A DNA stretch of 40,392 nucleotides from Rhodocyclaceae bacterium (GTDB lineage: Bacteria > Pseudomonadota > Gammaproteobacteria > Burkholderiales > Rhodocyclaceae), in NCBI GenBank assembly GCA_027492775.1, contig JAPUEC010000212.1:1-40392 (forward strand), written 5' to 3'. Each line of letters starts with the position of its first letter. Position 1 is the stretch's first letter. The notes below the pieces were generated by a model, which was not told the DNA's origin, searched no databases, and saw only the letters and a list, made by a program, of their open reading frames with translations. The position numbers and the translations under genes are program-made. Of the stretch, positions 25,131-32,650 are shown one piece after another.

Positions 25131-25516
25131 TGCGTCAATCTCCTTGGGGCCAGGAGAAGCGCGGCGACGGGGCAAATGGGGCGTGGGGGCCACCAGCCAG
25201 TCGCACCGTCAGCCGGGGCTTCAATGGTGTTCCGAAAAGGCGGGTCATGCCGGCTTGAGGGGAGGCAACGCCAACACCGCCTCTTTGGAACACGCACTGG
25301 TTAGTCAAGGTGGATCAAATCAAGTTCAACGTTCGAACAGAGGGTCAATGCAAATGCGGTCGGAAAGCCAGGCCCGGGGGTGAGCGGCGGTAGAAGGCCG
25401 GTCATGGCAAGACAATAGCCGCCGCTTGAAGACTTTGGCATTATGCCGATTGGGCGTGGCGGGGTCGTTCAATGGAATGCAGCCGCCCGGTGACGACAAT
25501 TCGTTGCGGGAAACCG
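25131..25516. other. Divergent intergenic region between sufB and DUF805 gene
   Basis: This 386-bp gap must hold the suf promoter on the minus strand and the DUF805 promoter on the plus strand. I see no clear sigma-70 pair. TAGTCAAGG (25302-25310; minus strand CCTTGACTA) resembles one half of an IscR type 1 site, but the other half is poor, so I do not call it. For the plus strand, TTGAAG near 25426 and TATGCC near 25443 are loosely promoter-like. Confidence 0.5.
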
Positions 25517-26998
25517 ATGACCAATACCTTCTCGATTATTCTCACGGGCGACATCCTTCCCGGTTTTCAGGCTGGAAACGTTGCCGCGGCGCTGGCCAAG
25601 CTGCTCAAGACGACGGAGGAAAAGGCAGCCGGACTGCTTCTCGGCCGGGAGACAGTGATCAAGCGCAACGTCGCGCCGGACGACGTGGATCGCTATATCC
25701 GCGCCTTGAGCCAGGCGGGCGCGGCTGTTTTGCATCGCCCCATGCCGATTGTCCCGCCAGCGCCGGAAATGGCGCTGCAACCAAAGCAGCAACCGGCAGC
25801 GCCGGCGCCAGCGCCCGAATCGCCGGTTCGCCCACCGCCCTCGGCTGCGAGCGAGCTTGCGATTGTCGAAACCGTGATCTGCCCGAGCTGCGGCCACAGC
25901 CAGCCCAAACGCACGCTTTGCCTGAAATGCAGTTGCGACATGCCGCGCATGCAGGCCGCCAAGGAGAAGGAAGCAACGGAACCCAAGGCGCCGCCGGAGC
26001 CGGCCTATTGGGCCAGCCCGCGGGCGAACGTCGAGGATATGGATGACGGCGAATCAGAAGCGCCGTCCGCGATTGGGGTGTCCTTGAACGGACGTATCGG
26101 ACGCTTACGCTACCTTGCCTACGCGTGGCCGATCATGTTCGTGGGATTGGTGGCGTTTGCCATTATTTTGCTCACTACGCTTCGCCTTAAAGCCAGCGGA
26201 TTTTTATTGATGCTACCGTTTTTCCTGATTTTTTTCTGGATGACCCTTCGAATCATGGTTTTGCGATTACATGACCTGAATCGCAGCGGGAAATGGGTGC
26301 TGGCTTTAATTCTGGTATCGATTGCAGCGAGCGCGACGCAGTCCCCGACGTTGATCGTGATGTCGACGGTGATTTACTGGTTGAGTACGCTTGCTCTCAT
26401 GGCATGGCCGGGAACAGTTGGCGCGAACGACTACGGGCTGCCTTGCGGCGCCAATACCTTTTGGGTGAAGGTGGGCGCGTTTTTGATCATCGCCCTCTGG
26501 ACTATTGGCATCCTGATTCTACTGAGGACGCCCGGCGCCGGAAAAATGATTTTATCCGGCGCGATGGGTAAAGCGCCTGCCGCGTTGGAGCAGACAGCAG
26601 GCGGAGAGGCAAGTTATGTGGAAGTCCGAGTCGATCAGGAGGTTTCCGGGCGCAACATTGAAATGGCATTTTTCGGCAAGGTTCATAGCGAGTCGGATTG
26701 CCACACCTTTTCGGACAAGCTCAAGAGTCGGTTGCCGACCAGTTGCCCCAATTGTGTTGTCAGAACTATGCAATGCAAGTCACAGTTATTGCCGCGCTAT
26801 GCCATGCTTTTCGACAACACGCCCTCCAGTCTCACATACATGAGCCTTGCTAGCGGCGATCAATCTGAACGGGAGGGGCGTATTGTTTTCTGGGGGCTTT
26901 CGGTGGCCGAGAGCGACATCGTTTGCGATTCGCTGGTTGCGCGCATGCAACAATCCCAAAAAGGTCGGGTGCGATGTATTCGCGCCCGAGCGCCGTAA
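25517..26998 (+). CDS. DUF805 membrane protein with N-terminal ligand-like domain, zinc ribbon and Cys-rich C-terminal domain
   Basis: A 493-residue four-part protein. Residues 1-75 (FSIILTGDILPGFQAGNVAAALAKLL...) match a small N-terminal domain common in betaproteobacterial membrane proteins. A Pro/Ala linker leads to a zinc ribbon (Cys122, 125, 135, 138). Residues about 188-335 are a DUF805 domain: GRIGRLRYLAYAWPIMF, several helices, and the signature RLHDLNRSGKW. Residues about 365-493 form a soluble domain with Cys395, 410, 413, 420, 470 and 487 that I do not recognise. ATG at 25517 is chosen over a GTG further upstream because MTNTFSIIL is the usual domain start. Function unknown; divergent from the suf operon. 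Confidence 0.8.
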   Translation: MTNTFSIILTGDILPGFQAGNVAAALAKLLKTTEEKAAGLLLGRETVIKRNVAPDDVDRYIRALSQAGAAVLHRPMPIVPPAPEMALQPKQQPAAPAPAPESPVRPPPSAASELAIVETVICPSCGHSQPKRTLCLKCSCDMPRMQAAKEKEATEPKAPPEPAYWASPRANVEDMDDGESEAPSAIGVSLNGRIGRLRYLAYAWPIMFVGLVAFAIILLTTLRLKASGFLLMLPFFLIFFWMTLRIMVLRLHDLNRSGKWVLALILVSIAASATQSPTLIVMSTVIYWLSTLALMAWPGTVGANDYGLPCGANTFWVKVGAFLIIALWTIGILILLRTPGAGKMILSGAMGKAPAALEQTAGGEASYVEVRVDQEVSGRNIEMAFFGKVHSESDCHTFSDKLKSRLPTSCPNCVVRTMQCKSQLLPRYAMLFDNTPSSLTYMSLASGDQSEREGRIVFWGLSVAESDIVCDSLVARMQQSQKGRVRCIRARAP

Positions 26999-30624: not shown

Positions 30625-31074
30625 CTAAAGCGTGGAGAAGAGGCGGTCGGGAAGCGCCTGGCGAATTTCCTGCGGACTATGTTTCGCGAAGTTCTTGCTG
30701 ATCTCCGTGTTCACCAGCGCCGTTGTGCCGGCGCCGAGTCTTTCCCGCAGCAAGCCGAGGAAAGCGGGCTCCGCCATGAGGCATAGCGCGTCGTACTTGC
30801 CTTGCTGGCGCCCTGTTTCCAGTTCAGCCGCCAGCTCCTCGGCGAAACGCATGACCTCGTGCCACTTCGCGCTATCCCGCACCTCGACCGCATGCTTGCC
30901 CGGACCGCCACTGTCGGCGGCGCTGCCCGGCCCATCGGTGACCAGATACTGCTCGCGCAACCGAGATTCCGGCCGGCAAAGCGTCTTCAACTCATGCAAC
31001 GGCCCCATCGGCGTCTCCGCCAGAAAAATCCGTGCCGTCGTACTGTTTGCTGCAACCACCCAAGCCTGGGCCAT
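30625..31074 (-). CDS. Host-attachment-family protein
   Basis: A 149-residue soluble protein of the family annotated as required for attachment to host cells (best known from Agrobacterium-like bacteria and common in free-living proteobacteria). The start MAQAWVVAANSTTARIFLAE, the basic PESRLREQYLVTDGPG, and the C-terminal motif ALVNTEISKNFAKHSPQEIRQALPD are diagnostic. The fold resembles eRF1-like/peptidyl-tRNA-associated proteins in some families, but function here is unknown. Same strand as cysJ with a 26-bp gap, so possibly co-transcribed with cysJI. Confidence 0.87.
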   Translation of the reverse strand: MAQAWVVAANSTTARIFLAETPMGPLHELKTLCRPESRLREQYLVTDGPGSAADSGGPGKHAVEVRDSAKWHEVMRFAEELAAELETGRQQGKYDALCLMAEPAFLGLLRERLGAGTTALVNTEISKNFAKHSPQEIRQALPDRLFSTL

Positions 31075-31249
31075 TTTTCGTCTCCTTTAAAAGCGGCGTT
31101 CGAAAAAGATCAACGAAGAGGTTTGGCAGGGGAGGGGGCAATGGGTTCCGATGCGGCGAACGTTTGTTGGATTGGGGTGCGGTCGTTTTTCTTTACATCG
31201 TATTTTTCGCGGAATCAGGCAGCCCTTGCCCAACAAGGCAACTCATTGG

Positions 31250-31265
31250 TGGCATGCGTCATGCT
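31250..31265 (+). promoter_or_regulatory. Sigma-54 (-24/-12) promoter for PEP-CTERM gene
   Basis: TGGCATGCGTCATGCT matches the sigma-54 consensus TGGCAC-N5-TTGC at eight of ten fixed positions, including invariant GG and GC twelve bases apart. Start of transcription would lie near 31277, about 65 bp before the PEP-CTERM start codon. An inverted repeat TTGCC-N6-GGCAA lies at 31226-31241 just upstream. Confidence 0.6.
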
Positions 31266-31341
31266 AAAGGGGCCCGCGATGCCGCGAGGTATCGCAAAAA
31301 ACGATAAATATCCCCAATGTTTCAGACAGAGGACATGACGT

Positions 31342-32004
31342 ATGCACGCATCGCTCAGAAAAACGATTTTCCTGCTTCTTGCCCTGGTCGGGCTGTGGTC
31401 GAGCACCCAGGTCCGCGCCGATATTTTGATCGGCTCCGGGGTGGTGGGCGCCACGCTCAGGCATTTTGAGATCGACGGGACGAAGAGCTACCTTACCTAC
31501 AACCCCGGTTTGATCGAGCCGGGCGGCCCCGCGCCAATGGATTTCCGCATTGCCGGCGAGCTTGATGCGCTCATTACGCCATTCGAGCGCACCTACCAAG
31601 TCGAAGGAGTTGAATATATCTATATTGATTACACGCTCATGTTCAAAAATGTGAATCTCGTTGGCAGCAACTTGCCTACGGGGTTCGAATTTCCTCTTTT
31701 CCCTATTGTCATCAACTCGCTCAGTGGGTCATCGATCAGTTTCTCGGGCGCCGAGCAGCAGTGTCTGGGCAATTGCACGCCTTCCGTTTCGGGCTCGATA
31801 GAACACGGCAGGCTGTATCTCGATGGCAGGGATCCCATTGAGAACGGTCGATTCATGGAGCAATACAGCATCTACATCGAAGCGAGCGAAGTTCCCGAAC
31901 CAGGAACGGCTTTGCTCATACTCTTGAGTTTTGGATTGCTGTATTCTCTGGCCGCAAGACGGCGCTGCGTTCTTCAGCGTTGCATCAATCCATCGGCTGA
32001 ATAA
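31342..32004 (+). CDS. PEP-CTERM sorting-domain exported protein
   Basis: A 220-residue exported protein that the EpsH/exosortase system would recognise, process and deliver to the surface or matrix. Signal peptide MHASLRKTIFLLLALVGLWSSTQVRA; the body is beta-rich with a Cys pair (QQCLGNC, 141 and 145). The sorting signal is VPEPGTALLILLSFGLLYSLAARRR (184-208): PEP motif, hydrophobic helix, Arg cluster. Oddly a 12-residue tail (CVLQRCINPSAE) continues past the Arg cluster, which usually is the end. Composition is visibly more AT-rich than the neighbours. Exosortase is not in the window. Confidence 0.88.
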   Translation: MHASLRKTIFLLLALVGLWSSTQVRADILIGSGVVGATLRHFEIDGTKSYLTYNPGLIEPGGPAPMDFRIAGELDALITPFERTYQVEGVEYIYIDYTLMFKNVNLVGSNLPTGFEFPLFPIVINSLSGSSISFSGAEQQCLGNCTPSVSGSIEHGRLYLDGRDPIENGRFMEQYSIYIEASEVPEPGTALLILLSFGLLYSLAARRRCVLQRCINPSAE

Positions 32005-32026
32005 AAAAGGGGGCCGCACGGCCCCC
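32003..32026 (-). terminator. Rho-independent terminator after iorB
   Basis: A 7-bp stem GGGGGCC / GGCCCCC (32009-32026) with a four-base loop is followed on the minus strand by TTTTTT (32003-32008). It lies 24 bp past the iorB stop. The T-run overlaps the stop codon of the convergent PEP-CTERM gene; on the plus strand only TT follows, so it acts mainly leftward. Confidence 0.85.
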
Positions 32027-32050
32027 TTGCGTTGTCCCGGTCGGCGAGAC

Positions 32051-32650
32051 TTAGTTTGCGGCGCGCCCCGCTTGCCGTCCGAGATCGAACGCCTGCTCGT
32101 TGGTCCCCACCCACTGCGGCTTGCTGGCGCGGAAGCGGTCGAGGATGCAGGCTTTGAGCGTTTCGGCCGGGAAGGGCAGCAGGTCGGCAATGGCGCCGAG
32201 CATGACGGTGTTCACCAAATGCAGGCCACCGAGACTACGGGCGATGGCACCGGCGTCGAAGTCGTGCACCTTGATGCCGGCTTTGCGTACCTCGCCAATC
32301 GGCTCTTCGGGATAGCTGAAGAGGCCGATGGAAACGATGGGCGGCGTCAGGCGCAGAGTATTGACCATGGCGACGCCGCCCGGCCGCAGGTAGTGGCACC
32401 AGCGCATCGCTTCGGCAGCTTCGAAACCGACCAGGATGTCGGCCTCGCCGGGCATGATCTCCGGCGATAGCACCTGAGTGCCGCAGCGCACATGCGAGGA
32501 GACGACTCCGCCGCGCTGCGCCATGCCGGCGACTTCGGTTTTCTTGACGTCGAGGCCCTGGCCGATGGCGGTATGCGCCAGGATTTCGGCGGCGGTCATG
32601 ACGCCTTGGCCGCCGGTGCCGACGACGAGAATATTGGTGGTCTTGTTCAT
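32051..32650 (-). CDS. iorB: Indolepyruvate:ferredoxin oxidoreductase beta subunit IorB
   Basis: Small subunit (199 residues) of the enzyme that oxidatively decarboxylates aryl-pyruvates such as indolepyruvate and phenylpyruvate to aryl-acetyl-CoA, reducing ferredoxin. The start MNKTTNILVVGTGGQGVMTAAEIL, the conserved KKTEVAGMAQRGGVVSSHVR and GEADILVGFEAAEAMR are the pyruvate-ferredoxin-oxidoreductase gamma-type domain. Its ATG overlaps the iorA stop (ATGA). Followed by a terminator, so it ends the paaK-iorA-iorB operon. Confidence 0.94.
   Translation of the reverse strand: MNKTTNILVVGTGGQGVMTAAEILAHTAIGQGLDVKKTEVAGMAQRGGVVSSHVRCGTQVLSPEIMPGEADILVGFEAAEAMRWCHYLRPGGVAMVNTLRLTPPIVSIGLFSYPEEPIGEVRKAGIKVHDFDAGAIARSLGGLHLVNTVMLGAIADLLPFPAETLKACILDRFRASKPQWVGTNEQAFDLGRQAGRAAN

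Follow-up and report, generated by a model that had tools for sequence, protein, structure and literature searches.

The PEP-CTERM gene and its neighbourhood

We analysed a stretch of 40,392 nucleotides from a Rhodocyclaceae bacterium (assembly GCA_027492775.1, contig JAPUEC010000212.1), hereafter the window. Positions 31342 to 32004 of its plus strand hold an intact gene for a PEP-CTERM protein of 220 amino acids, identified from its open reading frame and profile matches and preceded by a probable ribosome-binding site (AGAGGA, 31328-31333, plus strand) 8 nt before the ATG. The protein carries a signal peptide at approximately residues 1-26, recognised by eye, and an anchor at residues 184-208, where PF07589 matches with 22.8 bits (cut-off 20.7); TIGR02595 also scored above its cut-off (16.7 against 16) and no further family did so in the two profile libraries searched, which contain these models. 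The sorting signal (PEPGTALL...AARRR, profile match) is encoded at 31891-31965 on the plus strand and is followed at 31966-32001, according to the translation, by the 12-residue tail CVLQRCINPSAE. The domain thus lies at the C-terminus, and the genome encodes an exosortase (249 bits), the combination that marks PEP-CTERM sorting proteins. An earlier note, made from the sequence alone, had set the gene beside those of floc-forming betaproteobacteria; a floc-specific reading was not supported, the flocculation PepA model NF033554 scoring the protein at 13.6 bits, under its cut-off of 80.

The gene forms a single-gene unit between a divergent and a convergent neighbour. The divergent gene (30625-31074, minus strand) encodes a Host_attach/baeRF family 12 protein (PF10116, 125.9 bits) and has a 267-bp intergenic region in common with the PEP-CTERM promoter, so co-regulation of the two is possible. 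Towards the convergent iorB lies a G+C-rich hairpin (32007-32028) that is terminator-like on the minus strand, one such hairpin being found against 1.4 expected in shuffles.

The tail past the Arg cluster, which the earlier note had pointed out as a 12-residue extension with two Cys, is indeed present, but it is not singular in length: 7 of the 177 collected PEP-CTERM C-termini run at least 34 residues from the PEP motif (median 25, the window's 36), one of them besides the window's belonging to the same genome (L006), and for this reason we rejected the tail as a new sorting signal. Cys residues past residue 23 were found in two of the 177, of which the window's is one and the other has a lone terminal Cys, and a two-Cys tail was seen nowhere else in this collection. 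The tail is uncommon, though not unique in length. The PEP-CTERM protein of L006 (contig C116) has its long tail likewise after the Arg cluster, 38 residues counted from PEP, and its gene is without the sigma-54 composite described below.

The G+C content of the gene (53.8%) and of its upstream region (50.9%) is lower than that of the window (63.9%), as had been noticed before. The separate acquisition suggested on this ground was not substantiated, since the value falls within the range of the PEP-CTERM genes of the genome (49.5-64.3%) and the promoter is that of the native regulon; moreover, neither a donor nor an empty site was found, and the relatives differ in their neighbourhood rather than by a clean insertion. 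In G001 and G003, both of the same genus, iorAB is approximately 79% identical and other genes adjoin it. No homolog of the protein was detected in 60 other genomes at E values up to 1e-5, nor in the contigs of close relatives, and a recognised PEP-CTERM gene lay within 1.6 kb of iorB in none of 74 related loci; these absences speak for a lineage-specific gene and not for the route by which it arose, and together with the low G+C content they would fit such a gene. A second patch of low G+C content (52.6-55%) occurs at positions 26001-26963 of the window, within the open reading frame 25472-26998.

The promoter, the activator box and their predicted regulators

Pattern and matrix scans located the -24/-12 (sigma-54, RpoN) promoter TGGCATGCGTCATGCT at 31250-31265 on the plus strand, about 76-77 nt before the ATG of the PEP-CTERM gene. 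Its GG/GC spacing is canonical and its -12 element deviates at one T. The pattern TGGCAYRNNNNWTGCW occurs once in the window, both strands taken together, where shuffling would give 0.07 (a copy in 7 of 100 trials), and the site came top of a weighted -24/-12 scan of both strands (0.96, next 0.91) for which the weights were chosen by hand after the sigma-54 consensus. The element pointed out in the earlier note is confirmed as the best -24/-12 match in the window, and the start that it placed near 31277 agrees with the predicted transcription start at 31276 (plus strand), computed from the -12 GC at 31263-31264. No sigma-70-like site was found at 31000-32150.

The second half of the putative switch had been missed. 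It is the activator box GGTCGTTTTTCTTTACA (31181-31197, plus strand), found by motif and matrix, a predicted PrsR site whose TTTACA stands 53 nt before GGCAT (52 nt before the T of TGGCAT). The box scores 13.3 bits by a matrix from other genomes, its leading T being absent, and GTCGN6TTTACA is common to it and to three other PEP-CTERM promoters of the genome. By a matrix trained on 171 promoters outside this genome, the pair 31181/31250 ranks first in the window with 31.5, the next pair reaching 3.0, a lead of 28 bits; the score is nonetheless low for the class, below the 5th percentile (36.1) of the scores that the training promoters themselves obtain.

The assembly that contains the window (G000; 3.17 Mb in 261 contigs, 97.3% complete) encodes all the components for which a genome check had been proposed: one RpoN, two exosortases and, adjacent to each other on contig C88, PrsR (745.5 bits, cut-off 502.6) and PrsK (881.8 bits, cut-off 300). 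Eleven PEP-CTERM proteins scored over the cut-off. Among named genomes, the nearest relatives by iorA are MAGs of unclassified Proteobacteria (78-80% identity), followed by Rhodocyclales genomes (about 72% and lower), which makes an uncultured member of the Rhodocyclales the probable source. The composite GTCGN6TTKACA-N36-66-GGCAYN6YGC matched four times in the genome, the window's copy included, each time in front of a PEP-CTERM gene, and the reversed pattern never; since the composite was written from the promoters of this very genome, the four hits are partly circular and speak for specificity, not for recall. With the matrix from the 171 promoters, scoring pairs appeared before 6 of 10 PEP-CTERM genes of the genome (L002, L005 and L007-L010) and not before L001, L003, L004 or L006, a count that leaves out the eleventh gene, L011, whose start is outside the locus.

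Two loci of the genome stand apart. In L004 (contig C260) a strong -24/-12 element TGGCACAGCAGATGCT at 752-767 precedes a PEP-CTERM gene that has no motif 1 box; TTGACA is found twice upstream, and another activator is perhaps used there. On contig C101 the second exosortase directly adjoins a large PEP-CTERM protein (951-1688 and 1738-1812; L014, L011) with the C-terminus PEPEFYALIALAGGIGAWMRRRRQDRA, VWA-type by eye, possibly a dedicated enzyme-substrate pair.

Because RpoN, PrsR, PrsK, the exosortases and the 11 PEP-CTERM proteins occur together with the strict composite before PEP-CTERM genes, the window promoter is, as judged from its sequence, an ordinary member of the known PEP-CTERM regulon predicted in 2006. 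For 99 of 167 proteobacterial PEP-CTERM genes, the section of Haft et al. (2006, PMC1569441) on the motifs describes an upstream 17-nt motif 1 ending in TTTACA, followed after a gap of 62.8 nt on average (SD 10.6, range 32-92) by a sigma-54 motif 2, which precedes the start codon by 71 nt on average. The window resembles these sites in having a 17-nt box as motif 1 (first base deviating), a -24/-12 element as motif 2, a gap within that range and a single-gene unit, with 76 nt from motif 2 to the ATG, and PrsR, PrsK and RpoN are all present in its genome.

We thus regard the gene, with a rough probability of 0.88, as a member of the PEP-CTERM sigma-54 regulon controlled by PrsK, PrsR and RpoN, whose product would be recognised by an exosortase; the control by RpoN with PrsK and PrsR named in the earlier note is well supported by the PrsR-type box at a regulon-typical distance. 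For this explanation we also refer to the vulgaris regulator DVUA0057, as treated in PMC3333781. The kinase PrsK would phosphorylate PrsR, which would bind the box at 31181-31197, centred approximately 87 bp before the start site and on a helical face permitting contact with RpoN-RNA polymerase at 31250-31265. The AAA+ domain of PrsR would then open the promoter and allow this gene alone to be transcribed; its product, a secreted PEP-CTERM protein, would be exported by its signal peptide and held by its C-terminal helix, so that the exosortase could recognise the PEP motif while the Arg cluster and the 12-residue tail would lie on the cytoplasmic side.

Two other explanations of the promoter were weighed. 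The window box is a weak copy and the genome contains seven further long PrsR-like matches under the family cut-off, related regulators of the NtrC type, one of which might activate the sigma-54 promoter in place of PrsR; we hold this to be improbable, as GTCGN6TTTACA is present in the box, at a gap usual for the regulon, and recurs before the three other PEP-CTERM genes. It appears more improbable still that the two boxes match by chance and that another promoter, undetected or different, serves the gene: TTTACA by itself is frequent (3 copies in the window, 3.1 expected) and the -12 element is imperfect, but the joint match stands clear of any other in the window by the 28 bits given above, and the reversed composite gave no match in the genome.

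Gap lengths and a third element across the regulon

The composite was then followed into other genomes. In 61 genomes it gave 54 matches, against one for the reversed control, and in the whole order it was present in 85 of 399 genomes, with control matches in three. The first set collected comprised 180 distinct composite hits, 123 of them with a PEP-CTERM-like C-terminus downstream. The gaps were mostly of 42-43, 51-54 and 61-66 nt, none being found at 44-50, 57, 58 or 60 nt and six strays at 40, 55, 56 and 59 nt. After these peaks had been seen, a second set was obtained by searching gaps of 66-96 nt (matches in 49 of 399 genomes, control matches in three; 80 of 87 rows fetched), and its 80 promoters clustered at 73-78, 82-89 and 94-96 nt. 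When the period was taken over from the first set, the second set showed a concentration R of 0.66, a value that none of 20,000 uniform draws attained; the two sets also agree in phase (8.05 and 7.80). The best common period is approximately 11.0 nt (11.15 and 10.8 for the sets separately), near a turn of DNA.

The comparison took in 260 promoters altogether, most of which come from other genomes in the order. Six peaks were placed, after both sets were known, at approximately 43, 53, 64, 74, 86 and 96 nt, and in 231 of 254 non-redundant promoters the gap deviates from one of them by no more than 2 nt; redundancy was removed at 70% identity of the gap sequence only, so shared ancestry may remain in these counts. 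The 53 nt of the window fall on a peak. This regulon-wide spacing rule suggests that the distance from box to promoter is quantised by whole helical turns. It counts against a regulon-wide reading that, on the DNA examined, a recognised PEP-CTERM C-terminus downstream was absent for 57 of the 180 and 28 of the 80 hits; some of these (L046, L072, L190 and others) may be other PrsR targets, and some may be cut-off genes or chance matches. L052, L083, L091 and L092 look coding to us.

The 38 PEP-positive promoters whose gap measures 64 nt read approximately RYAAGTnnTTGATTT in columns 31-45 downstream of TTTACA. When 200 non-redundant promoters with gaps of other lengths were scanned with a matrix of this element, 53 rose above the 99% level of shuffled gaps, where about two were expected; two were obtained with the gaps reversed and two of 200 in the sequences upstream of the box. 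On the opposite strand the element was found in 28 of the 200, and in one orientation or the other in 81. Its offsets are phased, mostly at 20-21, 30-32, 41-43 and 51-52 in forward orientation and near 33, 43 and 54 when reversed. A result that counts against the wider reading is the less sharp phasing of the gaps in promoters without an IHF-like score above 5 (R 0.59, n=27) than in those with one above 8.83 (R 0.80, n=110). Read on the other strand, the element fits the E. coli IHF consensus WATCARNNNNTTR, as given in PMC7962754. The gaps of many regulon promoters therefore hold a probable DNA-bending, IHF-like site that is itself in phase.

As the element was learned from these same promoters and its identity is a prediction, it could instead be a second half-site of PrsR or the site of another protein, which would be compatible with control of the window gene by PrsK, PrsR and RpoN. 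We consider this unlikely, given its fit to the IHF consensus, its occurrence in both orientations, which is more in keeping with DNA bending than with a half-site of PrsR, and the presence of both IHF subunit genes in the genome, each over its NCBIfam cut-off. The only candidate in the window, CAACTCATTGGTG (31240-31252, plus strand), overlaps the -24 region and scores 6.18 where the threshold is 8.83, a value that 264 of 5000 shuffles attain; it is probably not functional, and we hence claim no IHF site in the window.

Known systems and the meaning of the proposed regulon grammar

The mapped -24/-12 promoter of pepA in Aquincola tertiaricarbonis RN12, which depends on RpoN1 (PMC9850573), resembles that of the window in driving a PEP-CTERM gene, whereas the window protein is unrelated by the PepA model and has no prsT beside its gene. 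IHF between activator site and promoter is common at sigma-54 promoters according to PMC7962754 and PMC7057263, and many regulon members would share with the nif-type promoters treated there the order of activator site, IHF-like site and promoter; they differ in that the predicted activator is PrsR and not NifA, and the window is without a convincing IHF-like site. Unlike in the motif section of Haft et al., the gaps are here sorted into classes by helical turn, and a third element is added. This general architecture appears new; a full-text search, with subscription journals mostly outside it, gave no paper that pairs the abbreviation IHF with PEP-CTERM, while the full name of the factor occurs in three, in one of which IHF is confined to the reference list, so that priority is not claimed, and nothing on helical phasing of PEP-CTERM promoters was evident at the level of titles, with the same restriction on journals.

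It is likely, on the evidence of gap lengths and element offsets, that helically phased, mostly IHF-assisted loops unite the PEP-CTERM promoters of the order in a single class, with the window as a short-gap member. In such a class, the PrsR box, the RpoN promoter and an IHF site of either orientation would keep their faces aligned over whole-turn gaps of 43 to 96 nt. If so, one nucleoid protein would be a regulon-wide partner in the expression of exosortase substrates, and the window would manage with a poor or no IHF site. The precise grammar turns about 250 natural promoters into a ready-made helical-phasing experiment with IHF as the proposed partner, and it would sharpen the prediction of exosortase substrates and of the switches of floc and biofilm surface proteins.
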